64,000 bases of DNA, taken from the NCBI GenBank assembly GCA_003669605.1, contig QWOP01000053.1:62001-126000 (forward strand), given 5' to 3'. Origin of the DNA: Planctomycetota bacterium (GTDB lineage Bacteria > Planctomycetota > Planctomycetia > Pirellulales > UBA1268). This document shows, one piece after another, positions 268 to 34,538 of this stretch (within the stretch, counting starts at the first letter, position 1; every line of letters begins with the position of its first letter). The notes under the pieces are model-generated. The model saw only the letters and a list, made by a program, of their open reading frames with translations. It searched no databases and had not been told where the DNA came from. The translations under genes were made by a program, and so were the position numbers.

Positions 268-2597
268 GCGACTTTCTCCCGTTCCCTGGCCGCACCGTTG
301 TCGGCGCAAACCCGATTGGCATTCGCTGCAGCCACCTCAACACATTCTGACTGTTTGGCGGACGAGACCTCCACACGGTCCTGTCCCAAGGCCTGATTCC
401 CCGCCGCCGCGATCGACCAGCGGCCGAGCGCCATCAAGGGGAAGTAGAGCCGGTACCAGTGGTAGCGAAGGTAGAACACTTTCGGGAAACCGGTCCCGGT
501 GAATGCCTCCTCTTCCCAATCGCCACAGGCGGTCTGCCGGCCCACCAGCCACTGCACTCCGCGGCGGGCGTGTGGCGAGTCGTGCCGGCCGGCGGCGAGC
601 AGTCCGGCCAGAGCCCAAGCGGTCTGCGACGGCGTGGGCTCCCCCTGCCCGGCGCAGGCGGGATTGGCGTAACTGTCAGGCGACTCGCCCCAGCCCCCGC
701 AGGGACTCTGGTGCGCTGCCAGCCAGTCGGCGGCAGCCACCACGGCATGATCGGTTTTCGGAACACCCACCGCCAGCAACCCCTCGATCGCCTGCCACGC
801 CCCGTAGACGTAGTTCACGCCCCAGCGCCCATACCAGGCGCCGCTGGCTTCCTGGGAACGGCGAAGATAGGCCACGGCCCGGTCGACCGCAGGGTGCCCC
901 TGACGGAGCCCAATCCTCCCCAACGCCTCCAGCACACGGCCGGCGAGATCGGGCGAACTGGGATCGATCATGGCGTTGTGGTCGGCGAACGGCACCTTGC
1001 AGAGCAACTCGCAATTATTGTCGCGGTCGAACGCCCCCCAACCGCCATCCGAATTCTGCAGGGCTTCGAGCCACAGGCGCGCCCGGTCGATGGCGGCGTT
1101 TGCCCGCGTCAGCCGGCGGGAGCAGAAGGTCTCTTCGCCGGCGAGTGTCTGCCGCCAAGTGGCCATTGCGATGACAACCATCGCCGTGTCATCAACATCG
1201 GGATAGAAGCGGTTGCTGTACTCGAAGCACCACCCCGACGGTGCCACTGGTGCGGTCCGCCGCGACCAGTCCCCGTCGGTCCGCACCTCCCTGTCGAGCA
1301 ACCAATCAACCGCTGCCTCCAGCGCCCGGGCATCGGCAGGAGAGTCGGCGTCACACTGACCGCGACGCGCCAACCTGTCGACCGCCAGCCCCCTCAGGGT
1401 CAGCGCGGTGTCCCAGACGGGGGAGCGACACGGTTCGATCCGCGTGGAGCCATCCTCCTCGTGTTCGATGAGCCCTTCGAGCTGCCTCCAGCACTCCTGG
1501 ACCTCGGGCGATTCTTCGGAACACCCCATCGCCCGGAGGGCGACAATGCTCCACACAATGGGGGGGAAAATTGCCCCCAGTCCATCACTGCCGTCGAAGC
1601 GCTCGAGCATCCAGCGGCGGCATTCGGCCACCGCCCGGCTCCGCAACGGCCTGATGCCGAAGGCATCGAGCGTCTTGAACACCCGGTCGACACCGCGAAA
1701 AAACTTGGCCCAGAGATCATCCCCGCCGAGTCGGCCCACCACTCGTTCGGCGTGGACCCCGGAGGCGTCGGCGAACAATTCGGCAATCCCCTGTTCCCGG
1801 GGAAGGACCCGCAACGGCTTGAATGCCCAGATCAGCGACAGCGGCACGATCATCGTCCGCGACCATGCCGACACGCGACGGAGGTTGACTGGAAACCAAT
1901 CCGGAAGCAGCACTATTTCTGGTGGCACTGCGGGGCAAGCGGCATACGACATCTGTCCGAGGAGAGCCAGATAGAAGCGGGTGAAACTGTTCACCGCCCA
2001 AGGGCCTCCAGCAACGGTGATCGCCCGGCGGGCCCGGCGCATCGGCTCCGACTCAGGGTCGTGACCAGTGAGCTTGAGGGCCAAGTAGGCCTTGACGCTC
2101 GCGCTGATATCGACCGGGCCGCCGCGGTAAATCGCCCAACCTCCGCCCGGCAACTGCTCCCGGAGAATGCGGAGGACGGCACCGGGCACATGCGCTCCGG
2201 TGAGCTTGCCGGCCCAGGCGAGAATCAGGATGTATTCGCTCTCCAGGATCGTGTCCCCTTCCAGGGGCCCACGCCAATGGCCATCGGCAGCCTGATGCCG
2301 GTACAACCATCGCGCCGTGAGGCGGCAGGCATCGAGCACCGGATTCTCATTCCCGGTCGACACCCGCCCCATCCCCCGACCGGAATGGCTGAGCGAATCA
2401 GTCGCTGCCGGGAGTTCCGCCGGAAAGGAAGGGGAAGCCGCCGGAAAGGAAGGGGAAGCCGCCGGATAGGAAGGGGAAGCCGAGGGCGGACCGCGGCGTC
2501 CGTCACCAAGGGAACGGTTTGCTGGCGGAGCCAATGTCGAGCTCTCCGCGTCCGCCATCGTGTGTCGCGTGTCCGTTCCGGGTCCTGTGTAGCTCAT
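264..2597 (-). CDS. shc: Squalene-hopene cyclase
   Basis: Cyclises squalene to hopene/hopanol, giving the hopanoid skeleton; a monotopic membrane enzyme. The protein (about 777 residues) carries the catalytic Asp-rich motif DVDDTAM near residue 465, several QW-type repeats (for example [11 protein letters not shown]) and the conserved end segment [19 protein letters not shown]. The family is usually about 630-720 residues; the excess is an N-terminal extension rich in Pro, Ser and Ala that includes three near-identical 7-residue units (A-S-P-S-F/Y-P-A) coded by a 21-base repeat around 2419-2479. The start is uncertain: ATG at 2597 is used here, GTG at 2630 and ATGs at 2558 and 2372 are alternatives, and none has a clear ribosome binding site. 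The stop overlaps the hpnH start (ATGA). Confidence 0.93.
2418..2480. repeat. 21-base tandem repeat inside shc
   Basis: Three consecutive units of about 21 bases (GCCGCCGGAAAGGAAGGGGA on the plus strand, third unit with one substitution) keep the reading frame and encode the repeated A-S-P-S-F/Y-P-A heptapeptide in the N-terminal extension of squalene-hopene cyclase. The length is a multiple of three, so copy-number change would not break the gene. Confidence 0.85.
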
Positions 2598-22752: not shown

Positions 22753-23805
22753 TCACGGTTTCGCCTCGAGAAAGGTGAAAGCGGCCCCGGGGCGAAATGA
22801 TCCGGAGGCGTCGCCGTTGTAGGTCTCGCCATCCTTCAGCGGAAGCCGCTTCACGGCCGCACCGGCCGTGAAGTCGAGGCGCTCCAGTGGAATCCAGAAC
22901 ACCGTCGGGCTCGTCGCCGAGTCGAAGTACAAGACGCGTTCCTTCTGGTCATGCACTGTTCGCCAGATCGTGCTGGCGACATTTGGTTTGCCGGGAGTTG
23001 TGATTCCCAGCGGCGCCGAGGCATTGCGGATGACGCTGAACACCGCCGCAATCGCGCGGAGCCCGGTGGTCTCCTTGGGGATCGAATCGACGTAGAAGCT
23101 CGCCCGCACGAAACGATCGCTGGCCCGGACCGTGCCGGGGAGCATCACGTCGCCGCCGATCTGCTTCCAGTAGGCGTTGAGAGCGAGCTGCTGATCATAC
23201 GGGGGGGAATTGGTCATCACGGTGTAGTCGCGGCTGTGGTGGATCACGAGGCGACCGGCGACATATTCAACGATGGCCGAGTCACCGGAGGAATCGGAGA
23301 TCGCCAGGTGGCCGACGCCAGCCTCACCGTTGGGGAGCACCGGAGCGAGAATCGTGAACGGCTCCTTCCGCAGGTCTTCCACTGCCTCGGCGACCGTGGC
23401 GTAGGAGTCGAGCACGTACTGAGCCCAGCCACCGATCGAGAGGTTCCGCCGTCCTGTCACCGGTTTCCCGTAGTCGCTCTCGGCCAGATAGAGCGTATTG
23501 GCGACGAGCCCCTTCTCGTTCATGCCATCGACGGTGGCGACGCCGTAGAAACTCACCGCTACCGACCCGTATTTGCTCGTCCACTCCAGGCTCGCTGGCC
23601 CGGCATTCCCATGCCGCTTCATCCCCTGCGGGAAGCACCAGATCTCCGAGGAGGGATCCTCCATCCAATCCATCGATCGGCCGACGATGACTCTCCCGTC
23701 ACCGAAGCGATGGAGGCAGCGGGTACAGGCCGACGCCGCCACGCCCAGCAGGGTGACGGCGAACAGGGCAACCAGAACAGCACCGAACAATCGAAAGCGT
23801 GACAT
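22753..23805 (-). CDS. Secreted linear-amide C-N hydrolase (choloylglycine hydrolase/penicillin V acylase family)
   Basis: 350 residues from ATG 23805. N-terminal nucleophile hydrolase: after the signal peptide the mature chain would begin at Cys27 (VAASA|CTRC), the catalytic Cys, with the conserved Arg43 and Asp46 in VGRSMDWMED and an Asn in the VMTNSPPYD segment (family oxyanion/active-site position). Family enzymes hydrolyse bile-salt, penicillin V or N-acyl-homoserine-lactone amides; in an environmental bacterium the last, or an unknown acyl amide, is more plausible, but this is inference. Here signal peptidase, rather than Met removal or self-cleavage, would free the nucleophile. Single gene. 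Confidence 0.88.
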   Translation of the reverse strand: MSRFRLFGAVLVALFAVTLLGVAASACTRCLHRFGDGRVIVGRSMDWMEDPSSEIWCFPQGMKRHGNAGPASLEWTSKYGSVAVSFYGVATVDGMNEKGLVANTLYLAESDYGKPVTGRRNLSIGGWAQYVLDSYATVAEAVEDLRKEPFTILAPVLPNGEAGVGHLAISDSSGDSAIVEYVAGRLVIHHSRDYTVMTNSPPYDQQLALNAYWKQIGGDVMLPGTVRASDRFVRASFYVDSIPKETTGLRAIAAVFSVIRNASAPLGITTPGKPNVASTIWRTVHDQKERVLYFDSATSPTVFWIPLERLDFTAGAAVKRLPLKDGETYNGDASGSFRPGAAFTFLEAKP

Positions 23806-24450: not shown

Positions 24451-25320
24451 TCAACGAACCGTCTCGGGGAGCATGACATGCGGATGAGTGCGGAGCGCCT
24501 CGGCTGCCTCAGGAGAGAGCACCGTCAAGCCACAGAGATAGAGCCGCCCCTTCCGCTTCGCCCCCTTCTGCTTCGCAAGCGTCTCGGCTGCCTCAGGAGA
24601 GAGCGTGGTCAGACCACTGAGGAACAGATCCCTCTTGTGATTGGCAAGCACCAAAGCCACCTCGTCCGAGAGCACCGGCAGGCCATTCAAAGACAGTCCC
24701 CCCTGATGCTCCACAAGCGCCTTGGCCACCTCGGGAGAGAGCGCCGTCAGGCCGTTGAGAGAGAGCCCGCCCTTGGGCTTCGCAAGCGCATCGGCCAAGT
24801 CGGGAGAGATTGCCATCAGGCCGCTGAGAACCAACGTGTGCTCGTGCTTCGCAAGCGCAGTAGCGACCTCAGGAGAGAGCGCCGTCAGGCCATTGAGGGA
24901 GAGCCAGCCCTTGTGCTCTTCAAGTGCCCTGGCTCCCTCAGGGGAAAGCGTCGTCAGGCCGTTGAGGACAAGGGCACCGATGTGCTTCGCCAGAGCATGG
25001 GCTAACTCTGGAGAAAGCGCCGTCAAGCCGCTGAGATCGAGACCGGCTCCGCTGTGCTCCGCAAGCGCTGTGGCCGCCTCGTCCGAAAGCGTGGTGAGGC
25101 CGCTGAGGTTTAACTCCCCCTGATGCTGCGCAAGGACCTTGGCCACCTCAGGAGAGAGCGCCGTCAGGCCGTTGAGAGAGAGCTCTCCTCCCGTGTGCTC
25201 CGCCACCAACGCTCGCGCCCTCGCGGCGGTGAGTTTCTCGATGGCATTGGTGTCGTCTTGCCCAACAGCCGATGCCATCATCGCGGCCCACAAAACGGCC
25301 ACGATTCCCCAATTCATCAT
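24451..25320 (-). CDS. Secreted protein made of ten 23-residue leucine-rich-like repeats
   Basis: 289 residues. After a signal peptide (MMNWGIVAVLWAAMMASAVGQ) and a short helix, ten repeats follow with consensus LxLNGLTALSPEVAKALAxHxG, nearly all 23 residues long (one has a 5-residue basic insert). LxLxGL fits the strand and turn of leucine-rich repeats, and SPEVAKALAxH the helix, so a curved solenoid is expected. I recall similar repeat proteins in other planctomycetes. Probably periplasmic or surface-exposed and involved in binding; no enzymatic motif. At DNA level the repeats have diverged, so this is not a recent expansion. Confidence 0.88.
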   Translation of the reverse strand: MMNWGIVAVLWAAMMASAVGQDDTNAIEKLTAARARALVAEHTGGELSLNGLTALSPEVAKVLAQHQGELNLSGLTTLSDEAATALAEHSGAGLDLSGLTALSPELAHALAKHIGALVLNGLTTLSPEGARALEEHKGWLSLNGLTALSPEVATALAKHEHTLVLSGLMAISPDLADALAKPKGGLSLNGLTALSPEVAKALVEHQGGLSLNGLPVLSDEVALVLANHKRDLFLSGLTTLSPEAAETLAKQKGAKRKGRLYLCGLTVLSPEAAEALRTHPHVMLPETVR

Positions 25321-25547
25321 GACGCTCTTTCTTTGCGACAAAGTGTGCTTACGACGCCCCACGGCCCGCCAAGGTAAGAAGCCGAGCGCCTCTTCGCTAG
25401 CCACCCATGCAGGGATTCGAGCGCCGCACAGAGGGCAACCCGCTTGGCAGATGGACGCGCTGACCTCAGCCAGCACCGGCGGGGCAATTCCCGCCCGGCA
25501 GCCTGGCGCCGCAAAGAGACGTTGCAGAGCCCGTTGCGAGAGCCCAA

Positions 25548-25841
25548 TCAGACGCCGTCCACTGGACCTGCCGGGGGATCGAACCGGGGGGCGGTCGTCG
25601 TCGGACCACTGGTCCCTTCGTCGAACCGACGCGACGGCCTCCGGGACACATTGGCGGAAGAATTGGCGGAGGAATCGATGTGGGCCGAGATGTCCATCTC
25701 CCTGGACAGCGTCGTGAACTGCTTGCGGAGCTCACCGATGCTCTGGCCCACCGACCGCCCCACCTCCGGCAGACGCTTTCCGTAGAGCATCACCGCGATT
25801 GCACCAATGACGACGATTTCGAGAGGGCCAAGGCCGAACAT
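25548..25841 (-). CDS. tatA: Twin-arginine translocase subunit TatA/E (longer paralogue)
   Basis: 97 residues from ATG 25841 (AGGAG eight bases upstream). Starts MFGLGPLEIVVIGAIAVMLY, the TatA/E membrane helix, followed by the FG-type hinge (YGKRLPEVGRSVG) and an amphipathic helix (SIGELRKQF), then a Ser/Pro/Thr-rich tail. Forms part of the pore that exports folded proteins. A second, shorter paralogue lies 143 bases upstream on the same strand; tatC is not in the window. Confidence 0.9.
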   Translation of the reverse strand: MFGLGPLEIVVIGAIAVMLYGKRLPEVGRSVGQSIGELRKQFTTLSREMDISAHIDSSANSSANVSRRPSRRFDEGTSGPTTTAPRFDPPAGPVDGV

Positions 25842-25984
25842 CGCCACAACTCCTGTCGGAATTCCCACGCACATCAGCCGAACTGCTGGACCGCCAAGAA
25901 GACGCCCGCCGGTCTACGGGACACTCTGCTCCGGTCACGACGCAGGCCACCCGTCGAATCTGCCCGGCAGACGCTCAGATCGAT

Positions 25985-26170
25985 TCAGATCGATCCGTCG
26001 CCGCGCCCCGCCGTGCCGTCGTCTTCGATGCCCTGCACGCCCCGCTTGAATTCCACGATGCCCTGGCCGAGCGAACGCATCACCTTGGGGAGACGAGAAC
26101 CGAACAGCAGCAGGATCACCGCCGCCACGATCACCAGTTCAACCGTGCCCAAACCCATGAATGCGATCAT
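25985..26170 (-). CDS. tatA: Twin-arginine translocase subunit TatA/E (shorter paralogue)
   Basis: 61 residues from ATG 26170 (an ATG at 26158, MGLGTVELVIV, is also possible). One membrane helix (TVELVIVAAVILLLFG), hinge FGSRLPKVMRSLG and amphipathic helix GIVEFKRGVQGIED; this is the canonical TatA length. Tandem with the longer paralogue, so the two may play TatA and TatB/E-like roles. Lies 172 bases downstream of the toroid-protein gene on the same strand. Confidence 0.9.
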   Translation of the reverse strand: MIAFMGLGTVELVIVAAVILLLFGSRLPKVMRSLGQGIVEFKRGVQGIEDDGTAGRGDGSI

Positions 26171-26342: not shown

Positions 26343-28010
26343 TCAACGCCGCCGTGCCACAGTCACCCTGGCTGCCCCCCCTGGGCCCCCTTGCGGAGTG
26401 TGACGGTAGTAGACCTCGAGGGACAGCGCCGCAAGCGCCGTCGCGTACACCCGCCCTCCATGCCCTCCCCACACCGGATCAGGATCAAAACTGCCGTCGA
26501 GTGGTCCACCGTCGTGACGCTGCAACGGCAACAACGCTGCTTGAAGAGCGTTGTTCCACCGCTCCCACGCCGGGCCCCCGGCGTGGAATGATGCCAAGGT
26601 GCCGTAGTACCAGGTGTAGGCGTTGGGCGCACGCGAATCGGGGAGCGCGCGGGAGAGCAGCTCGACCCCCTCCGCCACCGCCGGATCGCTCGCGGGCGTG
26701 CCGAGGAAGAGCCGGCAAGCCAGCGCCTCGGCCGTCATCGCCACCGTCGGCCGCTCCCCAGTCCGGTAGGCGGCCAGCCCGCCAGATCGTCCGGAGGAGA
26801 CACTCTGCAGAAATCCACGAGCCCGTCTCTCGGCCATCTCCAAGCCACCAAGTCCCGCAGTTTTGGCGCTTGAGAGCACCATCACCTGCCAACCAAACTG
26901 GCTGGTGTCACCCCGGTCTCCGGCCGCATAGCGCCAACCGCCGGTGGCCGGATGCTGTGCTGAGAGGGTGTATTGCACCGCGCGTTCCAGGGGAGCTCGC
27001 AGCGCCGGATCGCCAGAGAGCGCCGCCGCCTCGGCGAGAGCCAGCGTCGCCATCCCGTGGCAGTAGAGCGCCGCGAAGAACTCGGCCTCACCCGCCAACG
27101 ACCCATCGGCCCGCTGCCGCGCGGTGAGAAAGGTGAGCCCCCGGGCGACCGTCCGGGAATGCGGCCCCTCCCGGTGCGTGGTGCCGCTGCCGAGAATCGC
27201 CAGTAATGCTAGGCCACTGACCCCACAATCGGCCCTGCCGCTGGCTCCCTGGGGATGCTCCCCGTCGACGCGCTTCCCGATGCCGCCGCCATGCCGGGCC
27301 ACCTCCCACTGCCCCTCCTCCGACTGGGCCCGCACCAGCCACGCAAGCGCTGCCTGCACCGCCTTCTCGGTGTCGGCGGAACCTCCACCGGCCTGCAGGG
27401 CCGCGGCCTGCCGGGGACCGGTGCGGGAGGCATAGACATCCGGTACCGGCACGCTGTCGCTCGCCGTCGCCTCAGGGCTGCTCGGGGATTCCTGCCCGGA
27501 CCGTGCTGGGAGCCCGGGCGGCTGAGCCTCCAAGGTCGGCGACGAGGACAGCGACACAGCATCGTCCAAGAGCGGTGATCCGCCGGGCGCCTCAGGAGCC
27601 TGCTGGTCGACGGCGGCGGCTGGTGGAGGAGGCGGATCAAGAGCCAGGAGAGGCGGAGGATCGGCGGCCGGCCCATCGTCAGCCAGCATCGTGTCACGCA
27701 GCGCAATTCCATCGCGCACGCCATCGTCGAAAGGCGATGCCGGCGCCAGTTCCATCACAAACAAGGTGGCGTCGTCGCCCAGGGCGCTGTCGTCGCCAAC
27801 CGCATCGCCAGCCGGCCCCGGAAAAAGTCGGTGCGGTCGCAGTCCGCCTACGCTTGCCAGGACCGTGGCCAGAAACAGATGGACGACGATCGACAGCCCG
27901 GCGCACTTCCGCAGCGGTTGCGACTCAAACCAGCCCCCCTTCGCCGCCGCGCCCACCCAGACGATGCCGAGGAGAGCGACTAGGGCCACCACCACCCATT
28001 GCATGGGCAT
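26343..28010 (-). CDS. TonB-like anchored protein with squalene-cyclase-type alpha/alpha toroid domain
   Basis: 555 residues from ATG 28010 (GGAG upstream). Order: membrane helix 1 (about 5-21); membrane helix 2 (about 36-56) containing Ser40-x3-His44-x6-Leu51 (LSIVVHLFLATVLA); a long acidic and Pro-rich linker (about 60-215, including DPPPPPAAA); and a C-terminal prenyltransferase/squalene-oxidase-repeat domain (about 220-545) with QW-like turns such as EEGQWEV, ADGSLAGE and ATGGWRY. The catalytic DxDD of true cyclases is absent, so it is a binding or structural toroid. ExbD ends 16 bases upstream and ExbB before that, on the same strand. Ser16-x3-His20 of the E. coli TonB helix is the part energised by ExbB/ExbD; the match suggests this protein is driven by that motor. 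Confidence 0.85.
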   Translation of the reverse strand: MPMQWVVVALVALLGIVWVGAAAKGGWFESQPLRKCAGLSIVVHLFLATVLASVGGLRPHRLFPGPAGDAVGDDSALGDDATLFVMELAPASPFDDGVRDGIALRDTMLADDGPAADPPPLLALDPPPPPAAAVDQQAPEAPGGSPLLDDAVSLSSSPTLEAQPPGLPARSGQESPSSPEATASDSVPVPDVYASRTGPRQAAALQAGGGSADTEKAVQAALAWLVRAQSEEGQWEVARHGGGIGKRVDGEHPQGASGRADCGVSGLALLAILGSGTTHREGPHSRTVARGLTFLTARQRADGSLAGEAEFFAALYCHGMATLALAEAAALSGDPALRAPLERAVQYTLSAQHPATGGWRYAAGDRGDTSQFGWQVMVLSSAKTAGLGGLEMAERRARGFLQSVSSGRSGGLAAYRTGERPTVAMTAEALACRLFLGTPASDPAVAEGVELLSRALPDSRAPNAYTWYYGTLASFHAGGPAWERWNNALQAALLPLQRHDGGPLDGSFDPDPVWGGHGGRVYATALAALSLEVYYRHTPQGGPGGAARVTVARRR

Positions 28011-28026
28011 CGGCTCGGGCTCCGTT

Positions 28027-28470
28027 TCACTCGTTGACCACCGGCCCGGCACCCGAACGCCCCGGCTGCGTCTGAACCGCGATCGCCACGCCGCGGATCC
28101 CCGCTGCGCGGCACGACTGATAGACCTCTGCCATCGTCCCATGCGAGGCTGAGCGAGCACCACGGACCACCACAGAGACATCGCCTCGCTCTTCGCGGAG
28201 CATCTGCAGCCGTGGCGTCAGCGCAGCGAGGGCCAACGGCTCCCCGGCGAACAGCAATTCCCCCGCTGCATCGACCTCGATCATCAGCGGTTGGGCGGGC
28301 TGGGCGGATGCGGCAGAGCCCACCTGGGGAAGGTCAACGTCGATCGCCCGCGGTCGATCCTCGAACCGGGTGGCACACATGAAGAAGATCGTCAGAACGA
28401 GGATGACATCGATCATCGGCGCCAGGTTGGGGGCGATCTCGTCATCGTCCGATAGTTTTACCAACGGCAT
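28027..28470 (-). CDS. exbD: ExbD/TolR-type biopolymer transport protein
   Basis: 147 residues. One N-terminal membrane helix with the proton-relaying Asp21 in NLAPMIDVILVLTIFFM, then a periplasmic domain ending AIAVQTQPG. With ExbB it forms the proton-driven motor that moves TonB or TolA. Begins 5 bases after the ExbB stop and ends 16 bases before the toroid protein: a tight three-gene operon. No tonB with a standard C-terminal domain is in the window. Confidence 0.95.
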   Translation of the reverse strand: MPLVKLSDDDEIAPNLAPMIDVILVLTIFFMCATRFEDRPRAIDVDLPQVGSAASAQPAQPLMIEVDAAGELLFAGEPLALAALTPRLQMLREERGDVSVVVRGARSASHGTMAEVYQSCRAAGIRGVAIAVQTQPGRSGAGPVVNE

Positions 28471-28475
28471 CGCTT

Positions 28476-29414
28476 TTAGCCCCCATTGGCCGGACGGCGG
28501 GGCGGAGAGCGCGAGGCGACGGACTCCAGCGAAATGCTGTCGATGACCCGTTGCCCGACCTCGTCGAGCCGCATCGCCAACCGATCGACGCGGCTGATAA
28601 ACAGCCAGTGGAGTGTCATGGCTGGAATCGCCACGAGGAGCCCGGCGGCGGTGGTGATCAACGCCTCGCCGAATCCCTTGGCGAGGAGGTCGGGCCGCCC
28701 CATGGCGCCGGCGGTGGCCACGTCGTTGAACGACCGAATCAGGCCGAAAACGGTCCCCAGCAATCCCAACAAGGGACCGATCGTGGCGATGCCGCTAAAC
28801 ACCCTCCGGTAGCGCCGCAACCGATTGATCTCGCGTTCACAAGCGTCGATCGCCGCTTGTTCGATCTCCACGACCGGTCGTCCCCACCGGCGAATGGCGG
28901 CGGCGAACACCGCGGCGGCTGGGCTGTCGCTGGTGGCACAGACCCGCAGGGCCTCCTCGCGGTCAAGTTCCCCCGCCTCGATCTGCGCGACGAATCGATC
29001 GACGAACGGCTTCGGCACCACCCGGCCGGTGCGAAGGTTGACCAGTCGTTCCAGACCGAAGACCACCAGCGCAAAGGAACAGCCGATCAGCGGCACCATC
29101 AGCAGGCCGCCGTCACGGAGCACCGCCAGGAGGTTGCCGGTGGGGATCAGTGTCTCAGTTCGATCGCCACCATCCAGAGCCCCCGCTCCATCCCTCTGCG
29201 GCAAAGCAACCGCTGCCGAGGTATCGGCGGAGTGGAAGGCATCCGGCACGGCGGCCACCCGGAGCGGAGCCCGGATCACCTCTGAGCCGGCCCAGGACCG
29301 GGGCGACTGGGCCGTGGCGACCGGTTGCACCCCGAGCAAAACCGCGACCGCCAGCGCCAGGATCGATCCGCGGCAGACACCGAACCGGTCGCCTCGTCGC
29401 ATCAGGGTGATCAT
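28476..29414 (-). CDS. exbB: ExbB/TolQ/MotA-family proton channel protein
   Basis: 312 residues from ATG 29414. A cleavable signal (about 1-38, ending VATAQ) precedes the usual three-helix ExbB core: VPLIGCSFALVVFGLERLVN, GLLGTVFGLIRSFNDVA and ITTAAGLLVAIPAMTLHWLF; the Thr residues that line the channel are present. The N-terminal extension with its own signal is seen in the longer ExbB forms. First gene of the exbB-exbD-toroid operon; a lipoprotein gene lies 224 bases upstream on the same strand. Confidence 0.93.
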   Translation of the reverse strand: MITLMRRGDRFGVCRGSILALAVAVLLGVQPVATAQSPRSWAGSEVIRAPLRVAAVPDAFHSADTSAAVALPQRDGAGALDGGDRTETLIPTGNLLAVLRDGGLLMVPLIGCSFALVVFGLERLVNLRTGRVVPKPFVDRFVAQIEAGELDREEALRVCATSDSPAAAVFAAAIRRWGRPVVEIEQAAIDACEREINRLRRYRRVFSGIATIGPLLGLLGTVFGLIRSFNDVATAGAMGRPDLLAKGFGEALITTAAGLLVAIPAMTLHWLFISRVDRLAMRLDEVGQRVIDSISLESVASRSPPRRPANGG

Positions 29415-29638: not shown

Positions 29639-30217
29639 TCAGAAGTTTGCGTCACACCCGGTGTCGACATCACCCACCATGTGAAGGTGGTCATGATCGA
29701 TGTAGAGCACTTCCTGGCAGTCGTCATCCACCAGCGTGTGCGGCACAGGCCAGCCCACCCGGCGGACCTCCTGGAAGTACACCGTGCACTTGTAGTGGGC
29801 ATGGTGGAGTTGCGTCGGTCCAGCCAGCGGAAGGTGACGCGGTGCGTCGATGTAATCGGCGATCTTGCACTTCGAGATGCGGACGTGGTTCCGCTGGATC
29901 TCGTAGAGGAAGGGCCAGTTCCCCTGGACGGGACGGGCCTTCTCCAGCGCCCGCATCACTTCATCGTCGCTCGGTTCGTCGAGCGCCTCGCAGGGGCCGC
30001 CAGGCTGGAGAGCACCCAGCACCGGAGTCCGCTCGTACCGCTCGTAGTTCCAGAACTGATCCTCCTTCGCCTTCTGCAGACCGACCGGCACTGGGATCGG
30101 GATCGCCAAGGGGCCGATATTCGGGCCCTGTTGGGTAAGCCAAAAGCATCCGCTCTGCGTGATGGTGCCCGCAGCGATCAGCAGGGCGAGCAGAGTGGAG
30201 CGGGCTGAAACCATCAT
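29639..30217 (-). CDS. Putative lipoprotein, function unknown
   Basis: 192 residues from ATG 30217, with GAGGAG seven bases upstream (a second ATG follows immediately). Signal peptide ends in a lipobox-like TQSGC (Cys24); Gln at -3 is atypical, so lipidation is likely rather than sure. The mature part is rich in charged and aromatic residues with four further Cys and a His-rich end (YIDHDHLHMVGDVD, HHAHYKC), which may bind metal. I do not recognise a family. The position upstream of exbB on the same strand makes it a candidate partner of the ExbB/ExbD/toroid system. Confidence 0.75.
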   Translation of the reverse strand: MMVSARSTLLALLIAAGTITQSGCFWLTQQGPNIGPLAIPIPVPVGLQKAKEDQFWNYERYERTPVLGALQPGGPCEALDEPSDDEVMRALEKARPVQGNWPFLYEIQRNHVRISKCKIADYIDAPRHLPLAGPTQLHHAHYKCTVYFQEVRRVGWPVPHTLVDDDCQEVLYIDHDHLHMVGDVDTGCDANF

Positions 30218-30503: not shown

Positions 30504-31610
30504 TTAGCGATGGTGGCTGTGGACATGACGCTCGTCAAAGTCGAGCCACCACCAGCCGTCGTCCCATTCCAGGGACACCCGCCGCCAGCCGAGTGGCACC
30601 TGCGGATAGGGGTAGAAGGGTCCGATGTATGGCCAAGCGGTCGGCGAGTACTGGGTGGGATACTGGACGGCCGCGTAATTGGGGGAGGCTGCGTAACTCG
30701 GCCAAGCGTAGTTGGGGACGTTGGGTCCATCACCCCGCATCGGCACCGGGCCACCGGCAACTCCCATCCCGCGGGCCGGCATCGGAGCACCGAGGCCGCC
30801 ACCTGGCCCACCCGGACCAGGGCCGGCAGCGTATGGAGCACCATTCATCGGGGCCCCATTCATCGGGCCACCGGCATAGGGACCACCTGGACCAGGTCCG
30901 CCGCCATAGGCATCCGCTGGTCCCCCCTCGGAATACCGCACCGATCCAGGGACCACCTGGCCGTTCTGCAGCCCTCCTGGGATCCCCGCACCACCTTCGG
31001 CTCCGTTGCCCATGCCGCCGGCATAGCCGCCGGGGCCGGGGAGATTGAAAGACTGCGACATCGCTCCGGTCTGCATGGCAACGTTCTGCCTGCCGGTCGG
31101 GCCACGCATGGAGGCGTGCGGTTGCATCGGCCGGCCGGTGGGCTCGCCGAGCGGACGGGGGCCAGCCTGTCCTGCTCCGCGGGTCGGCCCCACTGCCTGC
31201 GTGAGTTGCACCTGGCGGGCAGCATTCCCGGTTCCAGCGGACCGTTCCGCATCCGGGGCCTTCTTGCCCGAGAGACCAGCCGCCGAGCGGATCGACGAGG
31301 GAATGGCGAGCGAATTAAAGAGCCCGGTGGCGGGCTCTTCGCTCACTTTGAGTTTATTGACCACCCGTTCCACACCTTCGGTGGCACGAGCGGCAGCGAC
31401 AGCCTTGGCGATCTGCCCGGCGTCACCCACCTGGCCTTCAAGCCACACGGTGCCCCCCTTGGCCTTCACGCTCACACGGTGGCCTTGGAGTGCATTGGTG
31501 TCTCGCAGACTGCCGGCCACGCTGGCCGCCAGATCATCGGCGCCGGCGGCGGACGTCACCGCGGACGCCACGACCACCGCGAGCAGGAACGTGGACCTCG
31601 AAATGGACAT
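30504..31610 (-). CDS. Secreted BON-domain protein with long Gly/Pro-rich region
   Basis: 368 residues from ATG 31610 (AAGGAG upstream). Signal peptide ending TSAAGA, then one BON domain (about 25-95; pattern GHRVSVKAKGGTVWLEGQV then RVVNKLKV), a fold that binds phospholipid or surfaces in OsmY/BamE-adjacent proteins. The middle (about 130-320) is low complexity rich in Gly, Pro, Ala and Met, and the end is aromatic (YPYPQVPLGWRRVSLEWDD, then WWWLDFDERHVHSHH). Probably periplasmic or outer-membrane associated; role unknown. Confidence 0.82.
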   Translation of the reverse strand: MSISRSTFLLAVVVASAVTSAAGADDLAASVAGSLRDTNALQGHRVSVKAKGGTVWLEGQVGDAGQIAKAVAAARATEGVERVVNKLKVSEEPATGLFNSLAIPSSIRSAAGLSGKKAPDAERSAGTGNAARQVQLTQAVGPTRGAGQAGPRPLGEPTGRPMQPHASMRGPTGRQNVAMQTGAMSQSFNLPGPGGYAGGMGNGAEGGAGIPGGLQNGQVVPGSVRYSEGGPADAYGGGPGPGGPYAGGPMNGAPMNGAPYAAGPGPGGPGGGLGAPMPARGMGVAGGPVPMRGDGPNVPNYAWPSYAASPNYAAVQYPTQYSPTAWPYIGPFYPYPQVPLGWRRVSLEWDDGWWWLDFDERHVHSHHR

Positions 31611-31855
31611 GCATGACTCCTTGGCTCGGCAGCATTGACCGGACTGTCCGCGACCCACGTCCGACCGGTCCGGTATGCGTGGATGCTCTCGGGAGATGTC
31701 ATCGGCTGTCGGTCGCACCGAACAGGAGTCTTTTTCCGGTTTGCGCGAAGACGCCCTGGGTGCCGGCAATACCGGCAGGAGGGGCGGAAAGGGGGCCCGA
31801 GCAGTGAGCCAGCCCGGACAGGAATGCCCTGGGGAGTATTCAGGCGGGCCGTCAA

Positions 31856-32226: not shown

Positions 32227-34170
32227 TCACTGCCCGAGGAGCTCTTCGAGTTTCTTCTCCAGGTCGGCGATCACCAGGTTGCGATCGACCACCTTGCCAT
32301 CAGCATCGAGGAGAAACATCGTCGGCAGCGTGAGGACGCCAAGCTCCTCCGCAAGCCGGCCATCGAGCCCGCCTGACTCGTGGAGTTGTGGCCAGGGGAT
32401 CGGCTTGGCAGCCAGGTATTTGGCCAATTGTGCTTTGTCCGAATCGAGCGCAATTCCGACCACGGCAAATTTTTTCGGCCCATATTTGGCGTAGAGTTCC
32501 CGGATCTGAGCGATGTCCACTTTGCACGGTTCACACCAGGTGGCCCAGTAGTGGACCAGCACCGGAGCGCCTTTGAGCGATTCAAGCGACACCGTCGTGC
32601 CATCGACCGCCGTGCCGCTCAAGGAGAGCGTCCGGCCAACACTCTGCAGCCGCCTGGCGGCTCCGCGGGCCTTCTTGGCCGATCCAGATTCGGGAAATTC
32701 CTTGACGATCGCCTCGTAGCGGGCAAGGGCGCTCTTTTCGTTGTCGCCAAACTCATCGGCGATCCCCATTTGCAACAGCGCCTCGGCCGCGTCGGGGGAG
32801 GTGGGGTGGTCCTTCACGAAAGCGGCCAACTCCTCGAGCCACGCAGTCTGCACCTTGCCGACGTCGGCGCCGGTCTGCTGCATGGCGTCGGCATACCGGG
32901 CCGATGCCAGACGGAACACGACAAAGGCCTGCAACGGCTCCTCGTCCTCGACCCTCGCGGCGAGTTTCTCCAGCCGTTGAATACCCCCCGGGAGCGCCCC
33001 TTCCTGAACGGAAGCCGAGATGGTCTCCGCCAACTGACGGATCCAGAAGGCCTTCTGGTCGTCGTCGGCAGCAGAGACAACATCCTCGAGAACGCCGACC
33101 TGCTCCTCAGCGAGGGCAGTGCGGGCGTCTCCGGCGGCGGTCGTCATCTTCCCCTCGATATCACGGAGTTTCGCCAGGAGTGGCTTCAGCTTCTCGTTTT
33201 CCTGCGGAGAGTCGTCGCCGGCCCCACGACCGGCCATCCGGGGCGTGAAAAACCCCGCCGGTTCTGCGATCTCACCCTGAACACCAGGGACCTGCGGCGC
33301 GTCTACCGGCCGCCACACCTCTCCGCAGCGGACGAGCGAGCCGACATACACCTGCCCTGTGGCCCCCTTGGCGGCTCCGGCGTCAATGAGCACGACGACG
33401 TTGTCGTAGGCGGCGACATCCCTGGCGACACCAGCGGCGCCGGCGGGGAGGATTCCGGGCTGGGCTGCGAGCATGTTGTTCCACTGGACATCGGCCCCAA
33501 TCTGCTGCTGGGACTTCGCCAGAGCAGCAAATGCCTTGGCCGCAGCAGCAGCCCGGCCAACGAGTTCACCGAGGAGCGGCTCCTCGAAGCCGGCAGCCAC
33601 GAGATCGTCCTTGCTGGGAAGCAGACGGCTGAAGACTGCCGGATCGCGGGTCTTGAGTGCCGTCACGATCTCCGCCGTCGCCTCCTCCGCAGAGAGCGAT
33701 TTCCAGGCGTCGAGGGTGCCATTCTCATCCTTGTCCACCCCCCAGCGACCGCCGCCGGAATTCACCCACCGGGCCTGATCGGCCTTGGCGTTGAAGTCGG
33801 CGTCGATATCGCGATACACCTCCACGCCATCTTTGTAGTAACTCCACCGGTCCACCACCCGGTCGCCGTTGGTGTCGGCGAAACTGCGGAGCACTTCGCC
33901 ACGCGGCCCGCGGACGACCCACGCATTGAGCCCCCCTTCCTTCTCCATCTTGAGCGTAGCTCCCTTGGCCTGCTCGGCAGTCAATGTGTCGAAATCGACG
34001 TTCTTTTGGAACGGGGACAGCCCAAGGGCGTATTCGACCGTCGGCTGCGCGGCAGCCGGGAGGGATGCCGCGGCGACGAGGGCCAGACAAAGCATTCCCG
34101 CCACCGCCGGGGCACGGCAGGGAATGGCGAAGCCCGGAAAGAGAGAGAAAGCGGGGCGTACAGCGAACAT
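32227..34170 (-). CDS. Secreted TlpA/ResA-like thioredoxin with large N-terminal region
   Basis: 647 residues from ATG 34170. Signal peptide ends LPAAAQ; residues about 30-500 hold an unrecognised region (with a stretch of helical repeats, about 380-500, that may be TPR-like); the C-terminal 140 residues are a TlpA-type thioredoxin with active site WCEPC near 542-546, preceded by LVHYWAT and with cis-Pro in LTLPTMFL. Periplasmic thiol oxidoreductase; comparable planctomycete proteins are common and of unknown substrate. Copy B of the 43-base palindromic element sits 85 bases upstream of the start. Confidence 0.85.
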   Translation of the reverse strand: MFAVRPAFSLFPGFAIPCRAPAVAGMLCLALVAAASLPAAAQPTVEYALGLSPFQKNVDFDTLTAEQAKGATLKMEKEGGLNAWVVRGPRGEVLRSFADTNGDRVVDRWSYYKDGVEVYRDIDADFNAKADQARWVNSGGGRWGVDKDENGTLDAWKSLSAEEATAEIVTALKTRDPAVFSRLLPSKDDLVAAGFEEPLLGELVGRAAAAAKAFAALAKSQQQIGADVQWNNMLAAQPGILPAGAAGVARDVAAYDNVVVLIDAGAAKGATGQVYVGSLVRCGEVWRPVDAPQVPGVQGEIAEPAGFFTPRMAGRGAGDDSPQENEKLKPLLAKLRDIEGKMTTAAGDARTALAEEQVGVLEDVVSAADDDQKAFWIRQLAETISASVQEGALPGGIQRLEKLAARVEDEEPLQAFVVFRLASARYADAMQQTGADVGKVQTAWLEELAAFVKDHPTSPDAAEALLQMGIADEFGDNEKSALARYEAIVKEFPESGSAKKARGAARRLQSVGRTLSLSGTAVDGTTVSLESLKGAPVLVHYWATWCEPCKVDIAQIRELYAKYGPKKFAVVGIALDSDKAQLAKYLAAKPIPWPQLHESGGLDGRLAEELGVLTLPTMFLLDADGKVVDRNLVIADLEKKLEELLGQ

Positions 34171-34538
34171 GGAGATGGATTCCTGAGTGGACGGACGCGT
34201 CCAGAAGGTAGCGGGAAGCCCTCGCGGCGCCAGCGCCATTTTTCACCCTCGCTGCCCGTGGAAAAAGTGACCCTCGAGCTTTTTCCACTTGAAAAACATC
34301 CGCTTTCCTCTCAATCCTGCGCAGTCGCGCCCGTCTCGCGCAGCGAGTTGCCGCGGTTTCCCCACAGCCTGCTCCCCGGGTACGGAGAGCGATCGGCCAG
34401 GGGACCGTTCCCAGGGGGCACGGTTCAGTTTCCCGGTCCTGGATCGTGCAATCCGGGAGAGGGTTGCAAAGCCGCAGCCACCGCTGGTAGTTTTTCGCAG
34501 TCTGGTTTCCGCTCGGTTTTCCGGGGGGAATGGCCCAG
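34171..34538. other. 368-base intergenic region between the TlpA-like gene and tRNA-Ile
   Basis: Divergent promoter region for the TlpA-like gene (left) and the tRNA pair (right). Its recognisable content is copy B of the palindromic element at 34255. Confidence 0.55.
34255..34297. repeat. 43-base palindromic element, copy B
   Basis: GTGGAAAAAG (34258-34267), 11-base loop, CTTTTTCCAC (34279-34288), then TTGAAAAAC. Identical to copy A at 19284-19326 except for five changes in and next to the loop. Upstream of the TlpA-like gene, same relative orientation to its downstream minus-strand gene as copy A. Confidence 0.8.

Follow-up and report, generated by a model that had tools for sequence, protein, structure and literature searches.

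The locus raises the question of what an ExbBD-type motor does when the gene that follows exbB and exbD encodes a protein ending not in TonB_C but in an (alpha/alpha) toroid of the squalene-cyclase fold. In the stretch of a Planctomycetota bacterium genome analysed here (64,000 nucleotides, hereafter the window), exbB (28476..29414), exbD (28027..28470) and a gene for a 555-residue protein (26343..28010) lie on the minus strand with gaps of only 5 and 16 bases, respectively, between them. A preliminary description of this DNA had read the three genes as a single tight operon, and its coordinates, strand and gaps all proved correct. We propose, with a probability of roughly 80%, that the three genes encode an ExbBD-energised, TonB/TolA-like force transducer with a toroid tip, a reading drawn from sequence comparison and structural modelling.

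Both motor subunits bear the hallmarks of their families. ExbB, the proton-channel subunit, carries an N-terminal signal-like extension and a MotA_ExbB domain (PF01618, E = 1.6e-26; TolQ in the PDB, 1e-11), and the pore threonines seen in ExbB/TolQ are in place. ExbD comprises a transmembrane (TM) helix with the proton-carrying Asp21, as in ExbD/TolR, and a periplasmic domain (PF02472, E = 3.5e-24); its best PDB match is ExbD (4.2e-9), to Asp25 of which Asp21 aligns. In the homologue alignments, the ExbD Asp is conserved in 70 of 70 sequences, and Ser113, Thr221, Thr255 and Pro264 of ExbB, which correspond to TolQ/ExbB residues touching TonB/TolA or lining the pore, are conserved in 47/47, 52/52, 52/52 and 52/52 sequences, respectively. 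In Escherichia coli, Ser16/His20 of TonB and Ser18/His22 of TolA touch two TM1 residues of ExbB/TolQ, namely a Ser and a Trp, and the structures link this contact site to a Pro on TM3 (PMC12215075). As the invariant Ser, Pro and pore Thr of ExbB and the Asp of ExbD match the contacts in the Ton/Tol cryo-EM structures, we count them in favour of motor coupling. On the other side of the balance, the TM1 Trp is replaced by a small residue (Val117 in the window protein; Ala, Val, Leu or Ile across all these ExbBs), which counts against a TonB-like transducer.

AlphaFold2, run from 45 sequences, predicted two membrane helices in the toroid protein (residues 3–24 and 32–55). The Ser40-x3-His44 pair pointed out in the preliminary description, which had assumed a single helix, is indeed located in a membrane helix, namely the second (TM2; codons for residues 40–49 at 27864..27893, minus strand), the one that would bind the motor as in TonB. 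Throughout an alignment of 45 homologues, S40 and H44 are invariant, and they are the sole invariant columns before the toroid. L51, also correctly located in the window protein, varies among homologues, position 55 is Gly, and the Leu and second Ser of the SHLS motif are unconserved in the toroid transducers; we count the latter point against the TonB-like reading as well, albeit Ser-His is the best conserved portion of the motif and its Leu and second Ser are weakly conserved in TonB too (PMC12215075). The positively charged loop between the helices (residues 24–35) suggests an N-out, C-out topology with the toroid in the periplasm. The segment that follows (residues 56–190) contains 18.5% Pro versus 4.8% in the toroid, bearing out the Pro-rich linker described earlier; its sequence is otherwise free to vary and appeared disordered in the model.

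A strand-like segment outside the membrane (residues about 82–89, TLFVMELA; 27744..27767, minus strand), recognised by its beta-propensity and its position relative to His44, is a putative counterpart of the D-box, the ExbD-binding residues 43–54 of TonB (PMC10907165). Mean beta-propensity in 46 toroid transducers peaks at +24 to +30 from the His, and the best 6-mer falls inside +18 to +34 in 80% of them versus 22% if positions were uniform; the core of the TonB D-box lies ~26 residues past His20. Some segments come near TonB's QPISVTMVTPAD, such as TISVTLVDD in locus L053 and MRVTMVEDE in locus L062. In the window protein, TLFVMELA lies +37 aa from His44, ~10 residues further out than in relatives (mostly 24–29 aa after the His in orthologues), and this offset counts against the transducer reading.

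The toroid itself (residues about 203–540; 26391..27404, minus strand) was modelled with pLDDT mostly 93–98. Its best structural match was the squalene-hopene cyclase 8pak_B (Z 27.2, rmsd 3.2, 297 residues), and after the squalene-hopene cyclases came AprG, sugar epimerases and GH76 enzymes. Model and structure search together confirmed the squalene-cyclase fold proposed in the preliminary description, and the catalytic DxDD of true cyclases, said there to be lacking, was found in none of the 45 toroid sequences. The window protein scored 24.5 bits against SQHop_cyclase_C in Pfam, just under the curated cut-off of 26.1, and 44 of the 45 homologues matched this profile at E up to 0.01. We failed to find a Pfam match to TonB_C (PF03544) in the window protein or in the 45 members, or to vWA in the window protein.

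Such structural neighbours raise the alternative of an enzymatic role for the toroid in the periplasm, for instance as a glycan lyase, hydrolase or epimerase that is anchored beside ExbBD or activated by it and does no pulling. The Pectic acid lyase profile matches 11 of the 45 homologues, and the conserved D, H, R, Y and W residues of the toroid (including Y316, H318, E327, R360, D368, S370, Y415, Y465, W482, W485 and R520) are largely common to secreted or soluble toroid paralogues, as would suit an enzyme. Nevertheless, the window protein stayed below the curated cut-off for every enzyme family in the profile search, the Ser/His helix and the D-box-like strand imply energy coupling rather than plain anchoring, and the three genes are lost together (see below). 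We thus regard the merely anchored enzyme as unlikely. For a force transducer, the residues shared with secreted toroids suggest that the tip and the soluble periplasmic toroids probably bind similar ligands, which may be polymers of a glycan-like kind. Sequence therefore favours, over a hopanoid, some polymer or other component of the envelope that soluble toroids encounter as well.

A hopanoid or other triterpenoid, carried or extracted by the arm, was the ligand put forward in the preliminary description. A true squalene-hopene cyclase is encoded in the same window ~24 kb from the operon (411-2339, minus strand; TIGR01507 over cut-off), nearly all family members possess one, and in several related genera the hopene cyclase gene lies ~20–50 kb from the toroid gene. 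However, six genomes (G036, G037, G041, G043, G050 and G056), each at least 92% complete, carry the orthologue without a cyclase over the cut-off, and relatives such as G010, G013, G016 and G022 have a hopene cyclase without the cassette. The absence of DxDD and the sharing of the toroid residues with secreted paralogues also speak against this ligand. From the comparison of hopene cyclase presence with orthologue presence, we rejected a hopanoid as the dedicated ligand, and a triterpenoid-handling arm now seems very improbable.

We surveyed homologues across Planctomycetota genomes and found toroid-family matches in 256 of the 294 sampled; none was found among plasmids. In a tree of 129 toroid domains, 65 fell into one clade (SH-aLRT 99), which covers at least two orders and throughout which the Ser/His helix is retained, whereas its loss among homologues had been named as grounds for abandoning the idea. 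ExbBD genes adjoin the toroid gene in 63 of the 65, and the two unlinked members (L028 and L061) sit at locus or contig edges; more broadly, exbB and exbD lie upstream of the toroid gene in nearly every locus with a long enough flank among the GTDB genomes and relatives. The alternative that the toroid protein is unrelated to the motor, the genes being neighbours by chance, has in its favour that many relatives of the toroid lie apart from ExbBD: TM-toroids with Ser-x3-His and without adjacent motor genes made up 45 of 78 in a sample picked from high-scoring matches. These orphans count against the transducer reading, although TonB is likewise often unlinked from exbBD (PMC12204202). The clade-wide linkage, the loss as a unit and the invariant Ser/His contradict mere chance, and the synteny conserved in dozens of diverged loci settles the question, leaving that explanation with hardly any credence. 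Separation of the toroid from ExbB/D, the other outcome that the preliminary description had held to be damaging, is therefore not seen within the clade, while it does apply to many distant TM-toroid relatives.

A separate toroid clade also holds ExbBD-linked members. One belongs to a paralogous exbB-exbD-toroid cassette, the second in the window's own genome (L134:11675-15186, contig C22) and present in most of the genus; the Ser/His motif is found in this paralogue as well as in the orphan TM-toroids. In four distant ExbBD-linked relatives (L098, L101, L104 and L130; 1270–1699 aa), an N-terminal PD40 (TolB-type) propeller and a C-terminal toroid are joined in one chain that also has internal TM helices. 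Three of them have Ala for Ser four residues before the kept His, and the retention of the His alone in this propeller-fused variant counts against the transducer reading. In another locus, the toroid gene is broken into three frames (L027:5881-7640, same locus as L050), owing to either sequencing-error frameshifts or gene decay.

The surroundings of the cassette are conserved in the order TlpA-like protein, small membrane protein, BON protein, lipoprotein, exbB, exbD, toroid, TatA and TatA. In the window, where these features are all on the minus strand, the upstream end is marked by a TlpA/redoxin-type protein (32227..34239; PF08534, 2.2e-18), followed by the BON-domain protein (30504..31625; PF04972, 8.5e-12) and the lipoprotein (29639..30217), of which the Gly23-Cys24 lipobox is invariant in 20 sequences. 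Two TatA-like genes follow the toroid gene in most loci; here they are a TatA-like protein directly downstream, assigned by sequence (25985..26170), and a second, TatA/B-like protein (25548..25874; PF02416, 2.6e-9). Beside the TatA pair is a gene for a protein of repeated LTALSPEVA-like units (24451-25326, minus strand), and further on a choloylglycine hydrolase family protein is encoded (22753-23805, minus strand; PF02275, E = 1.1e-43). Aligned across the order, the lipoprotein averages ~73% column identity and has several invariant His in its C-terminal part; a Pfam search returned no match for it, and its AlphaFold2 model reached pLDDT 69.

The close orthologue of the toroid gene is absent from about half of the sampled genomes in the window's family, suggesting that the cell can do without it or that paralogues take over its role. 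In 12 genomes of this family (loci L175-L181, L183-L186 and L188), exbB, exbD and the toroid gene are all missing between an intact lipoprotein gene and an intact tatA pair, and wherever the sequence was uninterrupted, we saw no cassette with only some of the three genes. As the three genes are absent together with their flanks intact, this pattern supports the view that they behave as one functional module. We considered whether the window's genome had acquired the cassette by recent horizontal transfer and rejected this; toroid identity lies below, not above, the trend of the lipoprotein and BON proteins, favouring vertical descent with losses.

The same loci bear on another alternative, in which the motor arm substitutes for Tol-Pal and has the outer-membrane lipoprotein encoded next to it as its target, just as TolA acts on Pal via TolB. 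The fixed order of lipoprotein, BON and motor genes is in keeping with this, as are the fusion of toroids to PD40 propellers in distant relatives and the absence of Pal (TIGR02802) over the cut-off from all 58 genomes searched, in which weak OmpA-like matches exist. Nevertheless, all 43 good-quality genomes have the lipoprotein gene, which is kept, like the BON gene, in the 12 cassette-less ones, showing that neither depends on the cassette, and some genomes seem to be devoid of either ExbBD-toroid cassette. We consequently rule out the lipoprotein as an obligate partner and hold a Tol-Pal substitute to be quite improbable; the suggestion that the lipoprotein and the BON protein are dedicated partners is weakened likewise.

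A toroid-tipped force transducer agrees best with the evidence above, namely the Ser/His pair, the D-box-like strand, the motor residues, the synteny and the all-or-none loss. This much of the preliminary description, a proton-motive-force-driven, TonB-like periplasmic arm with the toroid in place of the TonB C-terminal domain, is retained after its hopanoid or terpenoid ligand has been given up. In such a machine, an ExbB pentamer and an ExbD dimer would form the motor, and TM2 of the toroid protein would dock on TM1 of ExbB via Ser40 and His44, like TonB and TolA. The short strand just outside the membrane may be offered to the ExbD dimer and captured in the fashion of the TonB D-box, and the toroid would be held out in the periplasm by the Pro-rich linker of ~135 residues. 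Pulled or turned by the motor, it may grip a partner molecule or a polymer there, by means of the face or pocket that its conserved aromatic and polar residues form.

If this is the case, the toroid becomes one of the few end domains for which actuation by an ExbBD-type motor is established or has been proposed, planctomycete motors of this type can serve something besides TonB receptors, and a modular design of one motor with swappable tips is suggested. As toroid genes occur so widely and would usually be annotated as cyclase-like, a widespread envelope machine may have escaped notice in planctomycetes. It is tempting, albeit doubtful, to extend the idea to motor-driven toroids as a large class in planctomycetes, some versions being fused to propellers and others orphans, in which ExbBD works a catalytic or polymer-gripping toroid on the envelope for force-assisted processing or threading of periplasmic polymers; this would be an activity unlike those of Ton, Tol, gliding or secretion motors. 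S40 and H44 provide testable residues, and the genomes at hand form a natural gain/loss series.

Among known systems, TonB resembles the toroid protein in its Ser-x3-His helix, a D-box at a similar distance to the D-box-like strand, the Pro-rich linker and the ExbB and ExbD partners. The toroid protein differs in having no TonB_C, two TM helices, an unconserved LS of SHLS and an ExbB partner with the TM1 Trp replaced. TonB_C was detected in 0 of 36 genomes sampled from the window's family and 11 of 22 other genomes of the order, and Plug (PF07715), the mark of TonB-dependent outer-membrane receptors, in 0/36 and 15/22, respectively; several of the 36 are incomplete metagenome-assembled genomes, but the absence holds across all. 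It is thus unlikely that this ExbBD serves a conventional Ton system in the family. TolA of Tol-Pal shares the Ser/His helix, same-operon motor genes and an adjoining lipoprotein gene, and is set apart by Pal, which has no counterpart over the cut-off here, by its unrelated end domain and by the non-obligate lipoprotein. The single-domain squalene-hopene cyclases 8pak/8paj (SQHop_cyclase_C) share the (alpha/alpha) toroid (Z 27) and QW-like repeats, whereas the toroids examined here lack DxDD (45 sequences), have ~18% identity to them and are tethered to a motor.

Of the systems in print, the vWA force transducers (Williams-Jones et al. 2025; PMC12204202) come nearest, following the same logic of TM helix, linker and motor with a vWA tip. 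They are present in planctomycetes and likewise have an SHLS-type TM helix (of which only the Ser/His part is kept here), a disordered Pro-rich linker, adjacent TolQR/ExbBD-like motor genes and a globular end domain unrelated to the TonB C-terminal domain. In the window's own genome, one further locus (L163:3688-10104) contains a long upstream ORF that may correspond to the TPR gene in the published arrangement of the vWA type, with a TolQ-like gene (PF01618 match) and two TolR/ExbD-like genes. The toroid system departs from the vWA transducers in its squalene-cyclase-fold tip, its usually single exbD and the lack of an adjoining TPR gene. The words "toroid" and "squalene" are absent from the vWA paper, and we found no description of a toroid-tipped transducer in the literature searched, a search with preprints and most subscription papers outside its scope. 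The helix, linker and motor logic is already known (PMC12204202), and what appears to be new here is the toroid as the end domain of a proposed ExbBD-linked transducer.
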